Below, piece after piece: positions 1 through 5,266 of a DNA stretch of 38,754 nt. Every line of letters starts with the position of its first letter. Positions within the stretch are counted from its first letter, which is position 1. The position numbers were made by a program, and so were the translations under genes. The notes under the pieces are model-generated. The model was given only the letters and a program-made list of their open reading frames with translations. It did not search any database and was not told where the DNA came from. The DNA is from Nitrosomonas sp. (GTDB taxonomy: Bacteria > Pseudomonadota > Gammaproteobacteria > Burkholderiales > Nitrosomonadaceae): the NCBI GenBank assembly GCA_017994575.1, contig JAGOKN010000019.1:1-38754 (forward strand), given 5' to 3'.

Positions 1-126
1 GCCATTCAGGAAATTACCGAATATATCGAAATATTCTATAACCGACAGCGCAAGCAAGAAAAATTAGGTTATTTATCGCCTGCACAATTTTCGCAGCAGT
101 ACTATGCAAATCTACTCGCTGCTTAA
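1..126 (+). CDS. IS3-family transposase, C-terminal fragment
   Basis: The window opens inside a plus-strand reading frame whose last 41 codons end in TAA at 124-126. The residues include YIEIFYNRQRKQ, LGYLSPAQF and a final YY-containing helix, which is the usual C-terminus of the rve (DDE integrase) domain in IS3-family OrfB transposases: YIxxFYNxxRxHxxLGYxSPxxF. The upstream part lies outside the window, so it cannot be said whether the gene is complete. The IS element lies just outside element 1 and is probably a separate insertion. Family assignment is confident; the exact IS subgroup is not known. Confidence 0.8.
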   Translation, partial: AIQEITEYIEIFYNRQRKQEKLGYLSPAQFSQQYYANLLAA

Positions 127-262: not shown

Positions 263-314
263 ATTGGTGGCGAATCAGGGATTTGAACCCCGGACCAACG
301 GATTATGATTCCGC
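263..314 (-). repeat. Distal att repeat of element 1 (tRNA-Met 3' fragment)
   Basis: These 52 bases are identical to 5189-5240. They cover the tRNA-Met 3' end (CCA, acceptor 3' strand, T arm, variable loop and the anticodon loop with CAT) and then diverge. The D arm and 5' acceptor strand are missing, so this is an attachment-site duplicate and not a functional tRNA. Confidence 0.9.
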
Positions 315-415
315 ATCACTAAATAAATAATATTCAAAAAACAACTACTTGAAATGCTTGCCGCACTCAAAATCAGTCACAATCAACTCTGGTTTGTATC
401 AATTATTTTAATCAA

Positions 416-433
416 TGACACAAATTTGTCACA
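416..433. repeat. 18-bp end repeat, copy 1
   Basis: TGACACAAATTTGTCACA contains the palindrome ACAAATTTGT. Near-identical copies are at 691-708 and 5126-5143, and a related one is at 37686-37703. All lie close to att sites of related integrases, so they are candidate arm-type integrase or excisionase sites. Confidence 0.6.
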
Positions 434-540
434 GCTAATTATATTTAATTGCCAGGGGAGAGCAGGTCAAGAATCTCTTTTATGGTAACCAAGAAAAGAA
501 AAAATACTTAGTATTATTAATCTTTAAGTATTATATCTTC

Positions 541-584
541 TGGTGGATAGATTGGGCTCCAGCCAGCGACCAAAGGATTATGAG
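541..584 (-). repeat. Decayed tRNA 3' fragment (att relic), tRNA-Ile2-like
   Basis: Read on the minus strand, this 44-nt stretch starts with CTCATAATCC, continues TTTGGTCGCTGG and ends in CCACCA. It aligns with the tRNA-Ile2 gene at 30264-30340 from the anticodon loop to CCA, with one deleted base and several substitutions. It matches tRNA-Ile2 better than the tRNA-Met copies that bound the element. The T stem no longer pairs properly, so it is not a working tRNA. Confidence 0.65.
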
Positions 585-690
585 ACACAATTACTAAATT
601 AACTATTTATATATAACAATCACTTACATTGCTTGCCAAGACATGAATCACTGCCACAAAGCTTAAATCACTGCGATCTGCGTCATAATC

Positions 691-708
691 TGGCACAAAT
701 TTGTCACA
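691..708. repeat. 18-bp end repeat, copy 2
   Basis: TGGCACAAATTTGTCACA differs by one base from 416-433. It lies 150 bp from the decayed att relic at 541, the same spacing that copy 1 has from the att repeat at 263. Confidence 0.6.
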
Positions 709-771
709 GTAATCCAATCCTTAAATTCACCATAAATGTTGGAGCATCTAACTCGCAGTATTACATCTCAC

Positions 772-1371
772 TTAGATATCTTTCAAAACTGCCATGCGTG
801 CATTAGAAAGGTACTGTTCAACATAAAACCGAGGAATTTTATATTGTTCAGCAATAGCCTCATAATTTGGAGGCATTCCCGCAAAACTGTCAAGCTTAGA
901 TCTTCTTTCATTGTATGGAAATAAATACTCCATCGCGGCTATTTCAGCCAATAATTCAACTTGCATTGGTGGTTTTGGCATTTTGCTGTTTTCATAAGAA
1001 TGAAGCCCTATAGTAGTCTCATCTATTAAAGCTCCAATATCCTTATTCTGATATTCCTCATCATCAAGGAAAATATGAAAAAGCTCCTTGCAAAGTACCA
1101 GTCTTTTCCAACAGTAATTCTGACCGCCGAGTAGCACTATATGATATGAATCATCAAATGCTAGAAAAAACCCTCTCATTGGTTGCCCTGTATAGTGTAA
1201 TTTGTGTTCAAAGAGCTTAACGTTCTTATTTAAATATTTTTGACACAAATCTACCAGATCATCAAGTGATCTTTCAGAACTTTTAGTATCCAGATAATAC
1301 AGATTATGTTGCTCGGTAATTTCACGAGCTTTAGCAATGGAACTTTTTAATTTATCAAGTTGAATTAGCAT
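772..1371 (-). CDS. IrrE/ImmA-like protein with a degenerate HExxH motif
   Basis: The 199-aa protein looks like the DUF955/ImmA-IrrE metallopeptidase family, which cleaves or relieves repressors in phages and integrative elements. Support comes from a strand plus helix reading KRLVLCKELFHIFL (residues 89-102), aligning with the usual RxxLAHELGHxLL. Downstream, an Ala/Glu-rich helix and an LFP motif match the ExxAxxFAxxLLMP region. The first zinc-binding His is Lys95, while Glu96 and His99 remain, so zinc binding is doubtful. The ATG at 1371 is the only early start. It lies directly after the U-tract of a terminator-like hairpin whose 3' arm contains the only GGAG. The gene probably works with the 65-aa protein upstream in control of element 1. 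Family confidence is moderate. Confidence 0.6.
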   Translation of the reverse strand: MLIQLDKLKSSIAKAREITEQHNLYYLDTKSSERSLDDLVDLCQKYLNKNVKLFEHKLHYTGQPMRGFFLAFDDSYHIVLLGGQNYCWKRLVLCKELFHIFLDDEEYQNKDIGALIDETTIGLHSYENSKMPKPPMQVELLAEIAAMEYLFPYNERRSKLDSFAGMPPNYEAIAEQYKIPRFYVEQYLSNARMAVLKDI

Positions 1372-1399
1372 AAAAAATTAGGCTCCGGTAAGGAGCCTA
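1372..1399 (-). terminator. Terminator-like hairpin directly before the IrrE-like start codon
   Basis: On the minus strand TAGGCTCC (1399-1392) pairs with GGAGCCTA (1386-1379) around a 5-nt loop, giving an 8-bp stem followed by A and six T at 1377-1372. The ATG of the next gene follows at once. It fits a Rho-independent terminator of the 65-aa gene. The GGAG in its 3' arm is also the only Shine-Dalgarno-like sequence for the IrrE-like gene. Confidence 0.7.
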
Positions 1400-1431
1400 T
1401 TTGTAGTTTATTTTTCTGAAGTGTACACATA

Positions 1432-1629
1432 TTACATACGAGGTTTAAGATCTCCGAATGGCTCCAATGTAACACTATCCCCACGTAAATGTGTACTTAA
1501 CACATATGCAACTTCATCTCTTACAGCGCTATTTAGTTTTGAATTTAATTCAGTAAAGAAAAATTTAACATCACGCAAACCAAGTCTATCTAGCTCAACT
1601 TGAACCGTTTCTAGGTCATTGGTATTCAT
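1432..1629 (-). CDS. Small protein of element 1, unknown function
   Basis: The 65-aa product is rich in charged residues and predicted helices, including ETVQVELDRLGLRDVKFFF near the N-terminus. It has no signal peptide or membrane segment. I do not recognise the family. Its stop lies 60 bp before the IrrE-like gene on the same strand, and a terminator-like hairpin separates the two. By position, opposite in strand to the replication gene, it takes the place of a repressor in many small phages and elements, but no clear helix-turn-helix is visible. A GGAG (minus strand) lies just upstream of the ATG, which supports translation. Confidence 0.5.
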   Translation of the reverse strand: MNTNDLETVQVELDRLGLRDVKFFFTELNSKLNSAVRDEVAYVLSTHLRGDSVTLEPFGDLKPRM

Positions 1630-2172
1630 AGCTCCCTCCGCACATACATAAACATAACATACATAAATAACTTACCGCCACTTGCAATAACTACTGCTAC
1701 TGCAAATAGATTACAAGCAATCAATTAATTTCAACAGATTTAACAAGCATCTAACCGAATAATTTATCTTAACATCAAATATCTTGATACTGCAAATTTT
1801 TCAATAATAACGGTATTATATTGATTAACTTTATTAACCTTCATTGCTCATTAAATTTACAATATAAACATTAGTAAATTTTAGTAGGACATAGTTCACA
1901 GCTGCTATGATTTCATATATACGCAAGTCAGTAATACATTGAAAAGAAGCTGTCACTTGGGTGCGCCGGACGACCCGGCGCAAGGCCATGCCCGGCTTAA
2001 TGGGCATGCTGGCCGATCCCATTCCACTACCGTGTTTCAACTATCTGCGCCATCCTGCAAAACGCTTTTGACTTTTCTTTCTTTTCTGCCTTCTCTAGCA
2101 TGTGACCAAAAGAGGTTGTCTATTACCCCTTAATCCATTATGCTTAATATATTGACCGAGGAAAATTAAACA
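1630..2172. other. Intergenic control region of element 1 with GC-rich palindromes
   Basis: This 540-bp region lies between the minus-strand and plus-strand genes. The first 300 bases are very AT-rich and probably hold promoters for both directions. From about 1960 a sharp GC-rich block begins, with two hairpins. TGCGCCGG (1962-1969) pairs with CCGGCGCA (1975-1982), and CATGCCC (1987-1993) pairs with GGGCATG (2002-2008). Short frames crossing it look like chance. Confidence 0.5.
1962..2014. repeat. Pair of GC-rich hairpins, candidate single-strand origin or packaging signal
   Basis: There are two adjacent strong inverted repeats: an 8-bp stem with a 5-nt loop, and a 7-bp stem with an 8-nt loop plus flanking GGC/GCC that could extend it past a bulge. 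They stand out from AT-rich surroundings, about 160 bp before the first gene of the replication module. Rolling-circle plasmids and filamentous phages keep hairpin origins in such places. The function is inferred from context. Confidence 0.45.
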
Positions 2173-2538
2173 ATGTCTGATCTTGAAAAACAACCCATTC
2201 CTCCCTTATCTCCTGAAGAAGCCCTGCAATATGTTGCGATTATCGACAAGGCAACTGAGAATTTTCGCGGGCAAGCTGATGAACTTCAGACCGCTATCGG
2301 CATGCTTATGACTGGCCGACTATTAGGATGGAAAGTATTACTCATTATTCATAACAAACGCACTATACGTAAATATGAGGAAATCCTCGATATCAATGTT
2401 CGTGAAATGTTTCCTGAGGAAGGCCCTTTAGCTTATAAATCCCTTGGCTACAAACTAGCCCGCACGGTTAGTAACTTCTGGAAAGCTGTTAGTGGCGATA
2501 TAAAAATAGAGCGTCGTCGTGAATTAGATGCAGATTAA
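2173..2538 (+). CDS. Conserved-looking 121-aa protein before the Rep gene
   Basis: The soluble protein of 121 aa has a proline-rich start (QPIPPLSPEEALQY), a long helical middle and a basic stretch (IHNKRTIRKYEEIL, about residues 59-72). It ends in a charged tail, IERRRELDAD. It has no signal peptide or cysteines. I do not recognise it. A GAGGAAA sequence 7-13 bases before the ATG is a good ribosome binding site. It is the first gene of the plus-strand module and stands about 50 bp before the rolling-circle initiator, so a role in replication control or single-strand DNA handling is possible but not shown. A 9-bp-arm palindrome follows its stop codon. Confidence 0.6.
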   Translation: MSDLEKQPIPPLSPEEALQYVAIIDKATENFRGQADELQTAIGMLMTGRLLGWKVLLIIHNKRTIRKYEEILDINVREMFPEEGPLAYKSLGYKLARTVSNFWKAVSGDIKIERRRELDAD

Positions 2539-2757
2539 AGGATATTAAATATCCTTGACAGGATAATGCATACCCCTTATATTAAGGGGTATGGAAAAAC
2601 CTTTTTCAAAACTGATTGATCAAACTTACGCCAGGGACAATGCGCGGTTGGGAGCGCCAGCGACCAACACAGCGCATTTCACTGGCGCAACATCGGATAG
2701 GGTTCAGCTATCTGATTCGGTTCATACTACCAATAACCCCCGTACGGTAATACGGGG
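2538..2757. repeat. Cluster of four inverted repeats around the rep start (candidate origin)
   Basis: Four hairpins occur in 220 bp. AAGGATATT/AATATCCTT lies at 2538-2556. CATACCCCTTA (2569-2579) pairs with TAAGGGGTATG (2583-2593) and includes the rep start codon. GCGCCAG (2654-2660) pairs with CTGGCGC (2682-2688). CCCCGTA pairs with TACGGGG at about 2737-2756. pT181-type replicons carry the double-strand origin inside the 5' part of the initiator gene, and this cluster sits in the poorly conserved first 60 codons. It is therefore a good candidate origin. Confidence 0.55.
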
Positions 2758-3670
2758 GGAAAGTCCCTCCGAAGAAAGAAAAAAATCACAGGCAGCTTTA
2801 ACCGATTGGTTGAATGTTTCCTTTCCTTTTCATCCTGAAAATAATAATCCTTTAAAGTTCTTCAAATCCTTTAGTGAAGTAACTAACTTTAGATTTGGCG
2901 GCATGACCGATCAAGAGCGTGGACTCCAAGGCTGGAAAAATTCTTATCGCTTTGATCATGGTTGTGTCATGTTTGCCTATGGTGGTCAAAATGAAACTGC
3001 GTTTTTATCGCTACCTGGTGAGGGTTGTTCATTCATATCTGATTGGCAAACATTTGCTGCATTTCTAAGAGATGACCTTCTAAGCAAAATTACTCGATGG
3101 GATGGCGCTGTTGATGATTTTAAAGGCCTTCATTCAGTAGACCACGCCGTTGAACTTTATAAAAGTGGAGGTTTCAAGCAGGGCGGCAGAAATCCAAACC
3201 CCAAACAGCATGGTAACTGGATCACACACGATGATCTTGGCCGTACATTTGAAGTAGGTAAGCGCAAAAACGGCAAGCTCATCAGGATTTACGAAAAAGG
3301 AAAGCAGTTAGGTGACCCTTCAAGTCCATGGGTTCGTTGGGAAGTAGAACTTCATGCAAAAGACCGCATTATCCCATGGGATGTTTTGCTGCATCCTGGT
3401 GAATATGTTGCAGGTGCTTATCCTTGTATGTCATGGGTATCTGAACGCGCCCTTCGTATTCATACTATCAAAGAACAAGATCGCATTAGCTATGAACGTT
3501 TAAAACAAGTTGCTTCAACTGCATATGGCGCTCTCTTTAACGTCATGCTGCAACGAGAAGGTAGTGCTGAACGTGTTGTGGAACTCCTGAAGAAACAAGC
3601 TATACCGAAACGCCTTGCATTCTCAGATCATTATTTACGTACTCAAGGTGAATCTTCCAATGAACTTTGA
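2591..3670 (+). CDS. Rolling-circle replication initiator, Rep_trans family (RstA-like)
   Basis: The 359-aa protein matches the replication initiation factor family (Rep_trans), which includes pT181 RepC, Tn916 Orf20 and CTX-phage RstA (itself about 360 aa). These proteins nick the double-strand origin through a tyrosine and prime rolling-circle replication. The first 65 residues are low-complexity. The core begins at DWLNVSFPF (72-80). RWDGAVDD (169-176) resembles the metal-binding acidic motif, and IRIYEKGKQLG (231-241) holds the candidate nicking Tyr234. RWEVEL (249-254) is also typical. The ATG at 2591 is the only start before the domain. The Shine-Dalgarno region (AAGGGG) abuts it and is part of a hairpin, so translation may be controlled. 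The stop overlaps the next gene. Family call is firm; replication versus transfer role is open. Confidence 0.85.
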   Translation: MEKPFSKLIDQTYARDNARLGAPATNTAHFTGATSDRVQLSDSVHTTNNPRTVIRGESPSEERKKSQAALTDWLNVSFPFHPENNNPLKFFKSFSEVTNFRFGGMTDQERGLQGWKNSYRFDHGCVMFAYGGQNETAFLSLPGEGCSFISDWQTFAAFLRDDLLSKITRWDGAVDDFKGLHSVDHAVELYKSGGFKQGGRNPNPKQHGNWITHDDLGRTFEVGKRKNGKLIRIYEKGKQLGDPSSPWVRWEVELHAKDRIIPWDVLLHPGEYVAGAYPCMSWVSERALRIHTIKEQDRISYERLKQVASTAYGALFNVMLQREGSAERVVELLKKQAIPKRLAFSDHYLRTQGESSNEL

Positions 3671-3953
3671 AATGGATGATCTCGACTGGGCTATGGGTGA
3701 GCTTGCAAATCTTTTTGCACAAGCAAATCGTGAAGGCAAATTTCCGCATGAGCTTGATCGAGAATTATTCTATGGAGCATGGACTGTACTGTGCTTTCAA
3801 CCGCTGGAAGTCTCAACTCGTTGTCGCCAGACACTAATCTCAATGCTTACCGTCCCCTTATGGCAAGTTTCTAGGGAAGGCTATATCAAGAAAAGTTTTG
3901 CTTTTAATGATTCCGACAAACCTATGCGTTATGAAAACACTTTCACTCATTGA
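3660..3953 (+). CDS. 97-aa protein downstream of Rep, unknown function
   Basis: The frame is open upstream, but the ATG at 3660 has AAGGTGA about 8 bases before it and overlaps the rep stop codon (3668-3670), so it is the best start. The product is acidic at the N-terminus (MDDLDWAMGELANLF) and has predicted helices. It contains LFYGAWTVLCFQPLE and no signal peptide. The family is not recognised. It occupies the place of rstB after rstA in CTX-type satellites, but I see no sequence reason to call it RstB. Its last codons overlap the start of the HTH gene at 3931, suggesting translational coupling through the whole module. Confidence 0.6.
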   Translation: MNFEMDDLDWAMGELANLFAQANREGKFPHELDRELFYGAWTVLCFQPLEVSTRCRQTLISMLTVPLWQVSREGYIKKSFAFNDSDKPMRYENTFTH

Positions 3954-4263
3954 AGCAGCCAATTTTCTCAAGATGCATGCAGAAGAAGTGCGACGACGTG
4001 CTAAATCTGGACGATTGCCAGGTGCTAAACTTGGTAAACGATGGGTATTTATTCTTGATGATCTTGTTGAATACATCAGGTCGCAGTATTCTATCCCTCG
4101 GCAAGCATTGAGAGTGGTTTCACAAAAGGAGGTAAACATATGCCACTCTACAAGCGCGGTAATACGTGGTGGATCACGTTCACTACACCAGCAGGAGAGC
4201 GTATTAGATGCTCTGCTGGCACAGCCGACAAAACCCAGGCGCAAGAATTCCATGACAAGTTAA
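3931..4263 (+). CDS. Excisionase-like HTH protein with a long tail overlapping int
   Basis: The 110-aa protein starts at ATG 3931, chosen because the winged-helix DNA-binding domain begins there: LSLIEAANFLKMHAEEV, then RRRAKSGRLPGAKLGKRWVF and DDLVEYI. This is the MerR/HTH_17 type found in excisionases and control proteins of integrative elements. An in-frame ATG at 3898 is possible. The domain is complete by about residue 50. A basic tail then runs 124 nt into the integrase gene in another frame, to the TGA at 4261-4263. The same overlap with a similar tail ending (KPRRKNS) is found in element B at 38566-38754. The probable role is directing excision and controlling int. Confidence is good for the HTH part and moderate for the tail. 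Confidence 0.7.
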   Translation: MKTLSLIEAANFLKMHAEEVRRRAKSGRLPGAKLGKRWVFILDDLVEYIRSQYSIPRQALRVVSQKEVNICHSTSAVIRGGSRSLHQQESVLDALLAQPTKPRRKNSMTS

Positions 4264-5165
4264 AATCTGACTCATGGCGTGTTTTGCATTTGGGAGCAAA
4301 GCCGAAATATACATGGGATGAAGCAGCTTGTAAGTTTTTACTTGAATCACAGTATAAAGCTACACATAAAGAGGACAAAGAAAAACTGCGATGGTTACAG
4401 CAATTTTTGCGAAACAAGCTATTAAATGAGATTGATCGAAAGTTGATAGATCATATCGCACATATTAAGGCCACAGAAGCAAGTCCTTCCACTGCTAACC
4501 GATATTTAGCTTTGGTACGGACAATTCTTAGAAAAGCTTGTCATGATTGGGAATTGCTCGACAAAGTACCAAAGATTAGGCTATTGCCAGAACCTAAGCG
4601 TCGTATACGTTGGTTAACACCTGAACAGGTAAAGCGGCTTCTTAGTGAACTGCCAATCCATCAGCAGGAAATGGTGATATTTGCGCTATCCACTGGATTA
4701 AGGCAATCAAATGTTCTTAATTTGGAATGGAGTCAGATTGATCTGGACAGAAAGGCTGCATGGATACATCCTGATCAGGCCAAGGCAAGAAAAGCAATTC
4801 ATGTTCCGCTTAATTCCGTGGCTATTTCAGTTTTATTTCGGCAAATCGGCAAACATACAAGCAGAGTTTTTACTTATCTAGGTAATCCGATTGCTTGGGC
4901 TAACACTCGTGCATGGAAAAAAGCATTAAAACGAGCAGAAATAGAAAATTTTCGGTGGCATGATCTGCGCCATACTTGGGCAAGTTGGCTGGCTCAACAA
5001 GGAACTCCTATGAATGTATTGCAAGAACTTGGAGGTTGGGAGTCTGAAGAAATGGTAAGTCGATATGCACACCTATCGAAACCACAACTTATGCAACATG
5101 CCGAGTTGATTTCAAATTTCCTTGATGACACAATTTTGTCACATCAGAAAGAAAGAAGATGCTAG
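4140..5165 (+). CDS. Tyrosine integrase of element 1
   Basis: The 341-aa site-specific recombinase has an N-terminal AP2-like arm-binding part (KRGNTWWITFTTPAGERI), a SAM-like core-binding domain (about 60-140) and a catalytic domain. Catalytic residues visible are Arg188 (STGLRQSN), Lys215 or 218, His274 and Arg277 (WHDLRH), Trp300 in the GGW that replaces the usual GH, and Tyr309 (SRYAHLS). AAAGGAGG lies 7 bases before the ATG. The stop is 25 bp from the tRNA-Met CCA end, so the enzyme almost surely recombines at that tRNA. It is about four-fifths identical by eye to the integrase at 37652-38689, which sits at a different tRNA. Confidence 0.92.
   Translation: MPLYKRGNTWWITFTTPAGERIRCSAGTADKTQAQEFHDKLKSDSWRVLHLGAKPKYTWDEAACKFLLESQYKATHKEDKEKLRWLQQFLRNKLLNEIDRKLIDHIAHIKATEASPSTANRYLALVRTILRKACHDWELLDKVPKIRLLPEPKRRIRWLTPEQVKRLLSELPIHQQEMVIFALSTGLRQSNVLNLEWSQIDLDRKAAWIHPDQAKARKAIHVPLNSVAISVLFRQIGKHTSRVFTYLGNPIAWANTRAWKKALKRAEIENFRWHDLRHTWASWLAQQGTPMNVLQELGGWESEEMVSRYAHLSKPQLMQHAELISNFLDDTILSHQKERRC
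5126..5143. repeat. 18-bp end repeat, copy 3
   Basis: TGACACAATTTTGTCACA lies inside the last codons of int and about 50 bp from the att repeat. It differs by one base from 416-433. The element B integrase has a related 18-mer at the same place (37686-37703). Confidence 0.6.
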
Positions 5166-5188
5166 AAATTAATCTAACCCATTGTTTT

Positions 5189-5240
5189 ATTGGTGGCGAA
5201 TCAGGGATTTGAACCCCGGACCAACGGATTATGATTCCGC
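5189..5240 (-). repeat. tRNA-proximal att repeat of element 1
   Basis: This is the 52-bp copy inside the intact tRNA-Met gene, identical to 263-314. It runs from two bases beyond CCA to just past the anticodon loop. Strand exchange lies somewhere within it. Confidence 0.9.
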
Positions 5241-5266
5241 TGCTCTAACCACTGAGCTAATTCGCC
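5191..5266 (-). tRNA. tRNA-Met (CAU), elongator type
   Basis: A complete 76-nt cloverleaf reads on the minus strand. It has acceptor GGCGAAT/ATTCGCC, D stem GCTC/GAGC and anticodon stem GCGGA/TCCGT with loop ATCATAA (anticodon CAT). The T arm contains GGTTCAAAT, the discriminator is A, and CCA is encoded. The words AGCGGAATCATAATCCG are typical of betaproteobacterial elongator tRNA-Met. It lacks the initiator-type three G-C pairs in the anticodon stem. The 3' half is the attachment site of element 1, and integration kept the gene intact. Confidence 0.88.

Follow-up and report, generated by a model that had tools for sequence, protein, structure and literature searches.

A minimal integrative rolling-circle element at tRNA-Met in Nitrosomonas sp., related to inoviruses and possibly a satellite of them

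To our knowledge, very few cases of filamentous-phage satellites have been described. RS1, the satellite of CTX-phi, integrates through the host XerCD and carries rstR, rstB and rstC, and a 2024 paper reportedly presents an autonomous plasmid as an inovirus satellite, a replicon that spreads with the inovirus. Here we describe a 4.93-kb element in a stretch of 38,754 nucleotides from a metagenome-assembled genome of the ammonia oxidiser Nitrosomonas sp. (GenBank assembly GCA_017994575.1, contig JAGOKN010000019.1, positions 1 to 38,754, forward strand; hereafter the window). The element resembles RS1 in its Rep_trans/RstA-kind initiator, in its lack of virion genes and in its relationship to filamentous phages, but, unlike RS1, it encodes its own tyrosine integrase and excisionase, targets a tRNA gene and has a slot for cargo. 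Integration into tRNA genes likewise separates its family from the inovirus-satellite plasmid, as judged by the title of that report. The element is real and complete, and it belongs to a broad family of minimal integrative rolling-circle elements. We give about an even chance to the fuller reading that it is an inovirus-related, self-integrating rolling-circle hitchhiker, most likely a satellite packaged by helper inoviruses.

Other described systems share some of these features, as far as the accessible parts of the papers cited in this and later paragraphs describe them. The phage-inducible chromosomal minimalist islands (PICMIs) are also small, encode an integrase and an AlpA/helix-turn-helix (HTH) protein, show rolling-circle behaviour, carry defence genes and lack capsid genes, but they are primase-based, lie at fis in Vibrionaceae and depend on a virulent phage as helper (PMC10803314). 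The MOBT/Rep_trans integrative and mobilizable or conjugative elements (IMEs/ICEs) of Firmicutes have a Rep_trans-type protein, a GC hairpin with a CT'AA nick loop and a tyrosine integrase, and some of them lie at tRNA genes (PMC5704250, PMC9371924). In contrast to these, the present elements occur in another host group, have a phage-type Rep and mostly a GTAA loop, and showed no coupling or transfer genes. Inovirus prophages associated with tRNA genes or integrases (PMC6813254) have Rep and a hairpin at the double-strand origin (dso), as do the Zot-bearing loci described below, and they carry Zot (pI) and virion genes; some of them share the integrase family of the present elements. Also among the nearest in the literature are tmRNA islands moved by a jumbo phage (PMC12595487), Vibrio filamentous or tailless prophages with defence loci (PMC11630473), hitchers (PMC11389934) and cryptic inoviruses (PMC6813254). 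No title or abstract opening describes the present family in the literature on inovirus satellites, Rep_trans integrative elements, PICMIs and Nitrosomonas islands, of which subscription papers were largely not covered.

The element is bounded by a perfect 52-bp direct repeat at 263-314 and 5189-5240, which bears out the attachment (att) repeats of an earlier first-pass annotation of this DNA; the distance from start to start is 4,926 bp. The features of the element are as follows.

263-314, strand not applicable: attL, a 52-bp copy of the 3' part of tRNA-Met, perfectly matching 5189-5240
415-433, strand not applicable: left arm repeat ATGACACAAATTTGTCACA, a candidate integrase/excisionase arm site found by repeat search
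541-708, strand not applicable: remnant of a second left end, with an att-like sequence GACCAAAGGATTATGAG and a second arm repeat at 690-708, found by sequence identity
772-1371, minus strand: orf199 (199 aa), probable orphan cargo with a very weak metalloprotease signal (phrog_87, E=8e-4)
1432-1629, minus strand: orf65 (65 aa), no convincing family match, possibly paired with orf199
1950-2031, plus strand: conserved double hairpin (DH) upstream of orf121, a candidate minus-strand origin and/or packaging signal
2173-2538, plus strand: orf121 (121 aa), predicted all-helical, of a family common to inoviruses and other prophage-like elements
2591-3670, plus strand: rep (359 aa), Rep_trans rolling-circle initiator with Pfam, PHROGs and PDB matches
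2737-2758, plus strand: candidate dso hairpin inside rep, CCCCCGTA-CGGTAA-TACGGGGG, with GTAA in the loop
3660-3953, plus strand: orf97 (97 aa), overlapping rep and xis, with relatives in loci L021-L023 and other Nitrosomonas elements
3931-4263, plus strand: xis, excisionase-like HTH_17 protein with its ATG at 3931, in a frame that overlaps the start of int
4140-5165, plus strand: int (341 aa), tyrosine integrase (Pfam Phage_integrase, 1e-33)
5125-5143, strand not applicable: right arm repeat ATGACACAATTTTGTCACA, from the repeat search and from comparison of the left and right ends
5189-5240, strand not applicable: attR, inside tRNA-Met (5191-5266, minus strand)

The two probable cargo genes lie on the minus strand and the remaining five genes on the plus strand, the last four of them overlapping. 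The Rep protein matched Pfam Rep_trans with E=5e-30 (105 bits against a cut-off of 29.6), the phage initiator family phrog_453 with 7e-72 and PDB entry 4cij, named 'GST REP', with 4e-9. The first 69 residues of Xis, the only part scanned, matched Pfam HTH_17 (1e-11) and the excisionase family phrog_1840 (9e-7). The integrase is 51-86% identical to six of seven aligned relatives and 30% identical to the seventh. The Pfam matches confirm the Rep_trans initiator, the excisionase-like HTH protein and the integrase named in the first-pass annotation, which had also noted a lack of structural genes; indeed, the family libraries recognised no virion gene in the element. Nor did the three small proteins of 121, 97 and 65 aa gain an identity, since Pfam, PHROGs, NCBIfam and PADLOC gave nothing convincing for them. 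For orf121, the structure model (predicted local distance difference test, pLDDT, 78) had no match at E<=0.001 in a fold search, and a PHROGs scan with 15 of its relatives gave a single weak match.

To place the element among its relatives, we compared the best 80 of 131 Rep relatives from a profile scan of genome contigs. An exact repeat of at least 38 bp was present at 30 of 63 integrase-bearing loci; leaving out four loci holding the same element as another (L026, L068, L083 and L094) and two Zot-bearing loci (L098 and L154) gave 24 complete, distinct elements including the one in the window. These measure 3,030-7,732 bp (median 4,225) and come mostly from beta- and gammaproteobacteria, with one, L089, labelled Rhizobium; the complete relative L038 is in the culturable Nitrosomonas aestuarii Nm36, whose genome probably has a Zot match as well. 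Where the genes are recognised, their order is attL, cargo, (orf121), rep, (orf97), xis, int, attR; orf121 was found in 10 of the 24, orf97 in seven and xis in 19. None of the 24 contains the morphogenesis ATPase Zot (pI), as judged with a profile built from one seed and from open reading frame (ORF) lists also read by eye. This recurrence as a stand-alone, att-flanked module supports the proposed minimal integrative element, in which a rolling-circle initiator is joined by a dedicated integrase for a tRNA site, and it runs counter to the alternatives that the gene set occurs only inside larger phages or ICEs or has no homologues elsewhere. The attR overlaps the 3' end of a tRNA gene in 22 of the 24 elements, and the genes used (Met, Asn, Pro, Lys, Thr, Phe, Val and Arg) are of eight types, so tRNA-Met is not the only site; L021 and L022, two copies in one genome, have no intact tRNA at attR. 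Of the small proteins for which the first-pass annotation asked whether they travel with Rep_trans and the integrase, orf121 and orf97 thus recur in part of the family, and orf65 was present in the window alone among the loci compared. We rejected orf121 as a marker of this family alone: it is also found next to zot in inoviruses of Nitrosomonas and next to other integrases. In L262-L269, orf121 relatives lie directly upstream of a different integrase in other Nitrosomonas prophage-like elements.

The nearest Rep relatives are from Nitrosomonas, with 92% and 88% identity, and Rep matches were found in 12 of 85 Nitrosomonas genomes including the element's own (11 of them strong) and in 17 of 300 sampled genomes of the order. 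Among the best 80 genome relatives, 17 have Zot in the stretch examined and 63 do not, an absence that contig ends could cause at incomplete loci. In the Zot-less group, the integrase starts at most 2.6 kb downstream in 42 loci, and orf121 lies just upstream in 26; the 17 Zot-bearing loci have neither within those distances, and in two of them (L098 and L112) the integrase lies farther on, past Zot.

Rep relatives also occur in CTX-phi and in Vibrio, Stenotrophomonas, Xanthomonas and 'Inovirus' phages among 135 phage records. In a Rep tree of 161 rows, the clade of the window (17 rows, all Zot-less) and other Zot-less clades lie among Zot-bearing clades, so repeated loss or gain of virion genes is probable; the tree gives no direction. 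This tree was built quickly and with no mixture model, it leaves out ten duplicate or fragment loci and four rows that were too short, it carries a long-branch warning, and some of its 'no Zot' rows end at contig edges. Taken together, the sequence comparisons make the relatedness of the element to inoviruses well supported.

The same tree bears on the view that the elements are decayed inovirus prophages that have lost their virion genes and are no longer mobile. The Zot-bearing L120 and L127 nest among Zot-less Reps, and inoviruses with the same integrase family exist, namely in 13 of the 80 viral contigs kept (out of at least 550 relatives) and in L098 and L112 among the genome loci. Some relatives are broken, with rep split in L023 and int in L253, which also weighs against an active satellite. 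In the window, however, the overlapping ORFs are intact and the att repeats perfect; the same minimal gene order recurs in separate clades, near-identical backbones hold different cargo, and the different tRNA targets and near-invariant signals likewise suggest continued selection and movement. We therefore give little credence to decay.

We then examined the ends of the element. The right att copy is the 3' part of tRNA-Met(cat) (5191-5266, minus strand), and this tRNA alone exceeded its gathering score in an Rfam scan of the element. The arm repeats of the window are TGACACAAATTTGTCACA, present at 415 and in a further copy at 690, and TGACACAATTTTGTCACA at 5125; a search for tandem repeats found none. 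In 20 of the 24 elements (hand tally), the best pair of left and right repeats lies +84 to +115 inside attL and -61 to -71 before attR, and in 7 of the 24 the pair has at most two mismatches in 17, where shuffling gives an expectation of 0. These end repeats are presumably integrase/excisionase arm sites. A degenerate second left end lies inside the element at 541-708, with an att-like sequence of another type and an arm repeat. Positions 568-637 are 71% identical to 293-362, and the remnant matches DNA close to the candidate left end of L035 at 86% identity over 66 nt; it may have been left by an earlier element or by recombination between two members of the family. No strict empty site with both window flanks was found, the left flank (1-262) being unmatched in 30 tRNA-Met/ubiH loci; in five such loci (L319, L320, L323, L329 and L331), the 140 nt before the tRNA are, by eye, free of an integrase end. 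Window positions 1-125 in the left flank resemble by eye the tail of an IS3-type transposase, and the outer left border is perhaps disturbed for this reason.

The candidate dso lies inside rep. Near the start of rep, 61 of 79 Zot-less loci have a hairpin with a stem of at least 7 and a CTAA or GTAA loop, against 0.60 expected from codon shuffling, and so do 55 of 96 Zot-bearing loci, against 0.75 expected; these counts include a few duplicate loci. The loop is mostly GTAA, not CTAA. The hairpin of the window taken alone folds no better than shuffled sequence (z=-1.2). The 28-nt stretch over it is 96% identical to that of Zot-bearing Massilia and Duganella loci and of six IMG/VR contigs. The marks of a Rep_trans rolling-circle replicon, an initiator domain and a GC hairpin with a putative nick motif in its loop, are both found in the sequence.

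The second conserved signal is the DH, whose non-coding DNA is near-invariant across 11 aligned Nitrosomonas elements while its surroundings diverge. It folds as DNA into two hairpins, with z=-4.0 in the window and -2.8 in L021. Searched by pattern, 85 genomes yielded 14 places, spread over 12 of them, and the reversed control pattern gave 0 among the matches listed. At E<1e-4, a covariance model matched 12 elements, contig C80 of the element's own genome, G373:C213, plasmid pNRS527-2 and Zot loci. The first 14 rows, mostly elements, showed slight covariation (2 pairs). With 25 distinct rows including inovirus loci, in an alignment fitted to the tested structure and with many related rows, 98.1% of cells pair (80.4% when shuffled), both sides change at 8 of 17 pairs in 62 cells (6.1 and 23.6 when shuffled), and the covariation score is 0.411 against 0.129, while versions slid along the alignment collapse. 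Among 13 Zot loci, chosen from 38 genomes with a Zot match and partly for having orf121 beside zot, nine contain the DH; its 11 copies all share the strand of zot and lie 68-1,972 nt past a zot stop. One of these loci is in the window's own genome (G000:C40:3124-3206). The exact-motif scan of viral_contigs gave four matches in GC-rich coding DNA, and these lack support from the structure model. The DH may have a role in packaging. A MOBP-type nic (CATCCTG) downstream of the DH was rejected, because CATCCTG is not kept in the 11 aligned elements.

The evidence for an inovirus helper is as follows. An inovirus satellite lacks virion and morphogenesis genes of its own, and Zot is found in none of the 24 elements. 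As a cis-signal, the DH structure is common to the elements and to the nine Zot loci, and also to plasmid and conjugative contigs. The DH occurs outside the element in 7 of 11 element genomes and in 19 of 74 others (p=0.017 one-sided, 0.030 two-sided), p values that, like those for Zot below, ignore kinship among the genomes. This co-occurrence is suggestive only, because relatedness is uncorrected and the Zot model also matches control genomes.

Several findings weigh against packaging by inoviruses. Co-occurrence with Zot is weak: 8 of 11 element genomes have it and 30 of 74 others (p=0.047 one-sided, 0.057 two-sided), and the one-sided value becomes 0.13 without one weak match, while the Zot model matched 4 of 14 control genomes, three of them above the cut-off. 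In the window's own genome, the Zot locus may be incomplete, and a transposase-like gene directly precedes zot. In viral contigs (a scan with the single Rep sequence gave no result), the best 80 of 262 Rep relatives include 74 with Zot and 0 with orf121. No excised circle or helper-packaged particle was seen. In other elements, among 77 chosen sources, the DH search gave no match below E=0.03, and several of these elements show a different structure; the structure-model searches covered such chosen sources (77 in one, 32 in another), and the filters of the genus search lose weak matches. The DH is also not confined to inoviruses: a search of 85 Nitrosomonas genomes gave 62 places in 30 of them. 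Twelve of these places are the elements, and of the remaining 50, about 17 have a Zot match within 5 kb (hand tally). Of 14 other places inspected, several lie beside genes that are also near inovirus copies and others do not. One copy (L288 12014-12095, G000:C80, minus strand) is on a contig of the window's own genome with genes that are VirB5/VirB6/TrbB-like by eye, and it has a compensatory stem change, a window-like downstream flank and an adjacent IS3-like transposase. Another (L284 8990-9072), with compensatory changes, is on the Nitrosospira plasmid pNRS527-2, where it has an IS3 transposase gene on one side and mobC on the other, the latter about 520 nt downstream. This location upstream of mobC on a plasmid suggests a role of the DH common to single-strand movers, that is, as a minus-strand origin.

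These two copies are an argument that the element is an integrative rolling-circle plasmid or a mobilisable element moved by conjugation, with Rep as a MOBT-like relaxase or the DH as an origin-of-transfer (oriT) or leading-region signal. The plasmid has a relaxase gene with mobC, although PLSDB types it as non-mobilizable, and Rep relatives occur on 27 plasmid records. MOBT relaxases are relatives of Rep_trans, and the nic of ICEBs1 (MOBT), a CT'AA within a GC-rich hairpin loop, has the same sequence as the dso of Rep_trans proteins (PMC9371924). On the other hand, Rep matches a phage initiator family as well as 'GST REP', and Pfam finds in it no HTH, a domain that most ICE MOBT relaxases have at their N-terminus (PMC9371924). 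The ORF lists of the elements contain, by eye, no coupling protein or type IV secretion genes, and the retrieved accounts of MOBT, in their accessible parts, concern Firmicutes. We consider this reading unlikely on balance.

A tailed-phage satellite resembling PICMIs, whose rolling-circle concatemers would be packaged headful by a tailed helper, is another way in which an element of this size could spread. PICMI115 measures 6.1 kb, and PICMIs combine int and AlpA with reported rolling-circle concatemers and defence genes (PMC10803314); the integrase family of the present element, moreover, is common in viral contigs with no Zot in the flank examined (67 of the 80 kept). However, the PICMI model, as the accessible text gives it, needs a DUF3987/DUF5906 primase and fis, neither of which was matched here, and the site is tRNA-Met, while Rep, dso and DH are of the inovirus kind. 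A tailed helper is, in our estimation, quite improbable.

Satellite spread through inoviruses seems the most likely route, because the element has no virion genes and yet has the DH signal and a type of Rep and dso common to inoviruses; packaging by inoviruses is thus the likeliest explanation, though an unproven one. In such a cycle, Int, the HTH_17 excisionase and the arm sites would move the element into and out of the 3' end of tRNA-Met, the att repeat restoring the tRNA. In the circular form, Rep would nick the GTAA loop in its own gene and peel off a single-stranded circle, a step for which Rep_trans plasmids serve as the model. The DH, exposed on the displaced strand, may act as minus-strand origin and/or as uptake site for packaging of single-stranded DNA, and the element would then spread as a satellite inside helper inovirus particles. 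It would pay its way to the host by the cargo between attL and orf121, often anti-phage in the relatives and here orf199 and orf65.

The cargo slot, between attL and orf121 or rep, contains known or candidate anti-phage genes in 8 of the 24 complete elements (PADLOC models, E up to 0.001), in scans that covered 20 chosen cargo proteins and the seven proteins of the window:

L022: CD-NTase and Cap15 (CBASS), by PADLOC
L042: AriA and AriB (PARIS), by PADLOC
L021: GmrSD-like, by PADLOC
L029: MT-A70 methylase, by PADLOC, with a BglII-type endonuclease, by Pfam (restriction-modification)
L059: dCTP deaminase, by PADLOC
L093: NsnA/PD-T4-2 type, by PADLOC
L078: GmrSD_N, weak in PADLOC
L076: candidate Polbeta and HEPN pair

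The near-identical backbones of L021 and L022 in one genome carry different cargo. There is no room for cargo in L025 and L056, and the scanned cargo of L037, L038, L082 and L089 had no matches; the cargo of L104 has a PEP-CTERM motif and that of L039 a HEPN domain. In the window, orf199 and orf65, which had been annotated as an oppositely transcribed control pair, are not recognisable as such and occupy the position of the relatives' cargo. Relatives of orf199 were found in one of 300 genomes of the order, its own, and in no plasmids or phages. Its match to phrog_87 ('metallo-protease') is weak and was read as an ImmA-like signal, and its structure model (pLDDT 40) is too low in confidence for use. 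The two genes are more likely orphan cargo, and their position would allow that they are possibly defence or toxin-antitoxin genes.

We tentatively extend this reading, with a confidence somewhat short of even, to a widespread undescribed family of 3-8 kb integrative filamentous-phage satellites, each with its own tRNA site and an origin inside rep, which would leave the cell as helper-coated single-stranded circles by means of the shared DH and ferry defence systems. If so, a non-lytic phage would be a vehicle of immunity against lytic phages, the family would offer a minimal chassis of about 3 kb for integrative rolling-circle elements, and position in the slot would point to new defence genes, such as orf199/orf65 and other orphan cargo. 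The DH would be a concrete cis-signal linking element and inovirus.

Close to the Nitrosomonas DH and its variable neighbours, we repeatedly found two small conserved proteins, one of about 142 aa (L240, L241 and L302) and one of about 75-90 aa (L242, L246, L304 and L313). Elements of other clades have a long three-way-junction structure near rep, with an outer stem like ATCCAYAGCC...GGCTGTGGAT and two inner hairpins. It lies upstream of rep in L025, L028, L069, L077, L081 and L093 (by pattern) and in L029, L089 and L104 (by fold), and between rep and int in L076 and L095. The clear pattern matches among L021-L194 are all in Zot-less loci, and the viral contig L301 has one exact match to the motif.

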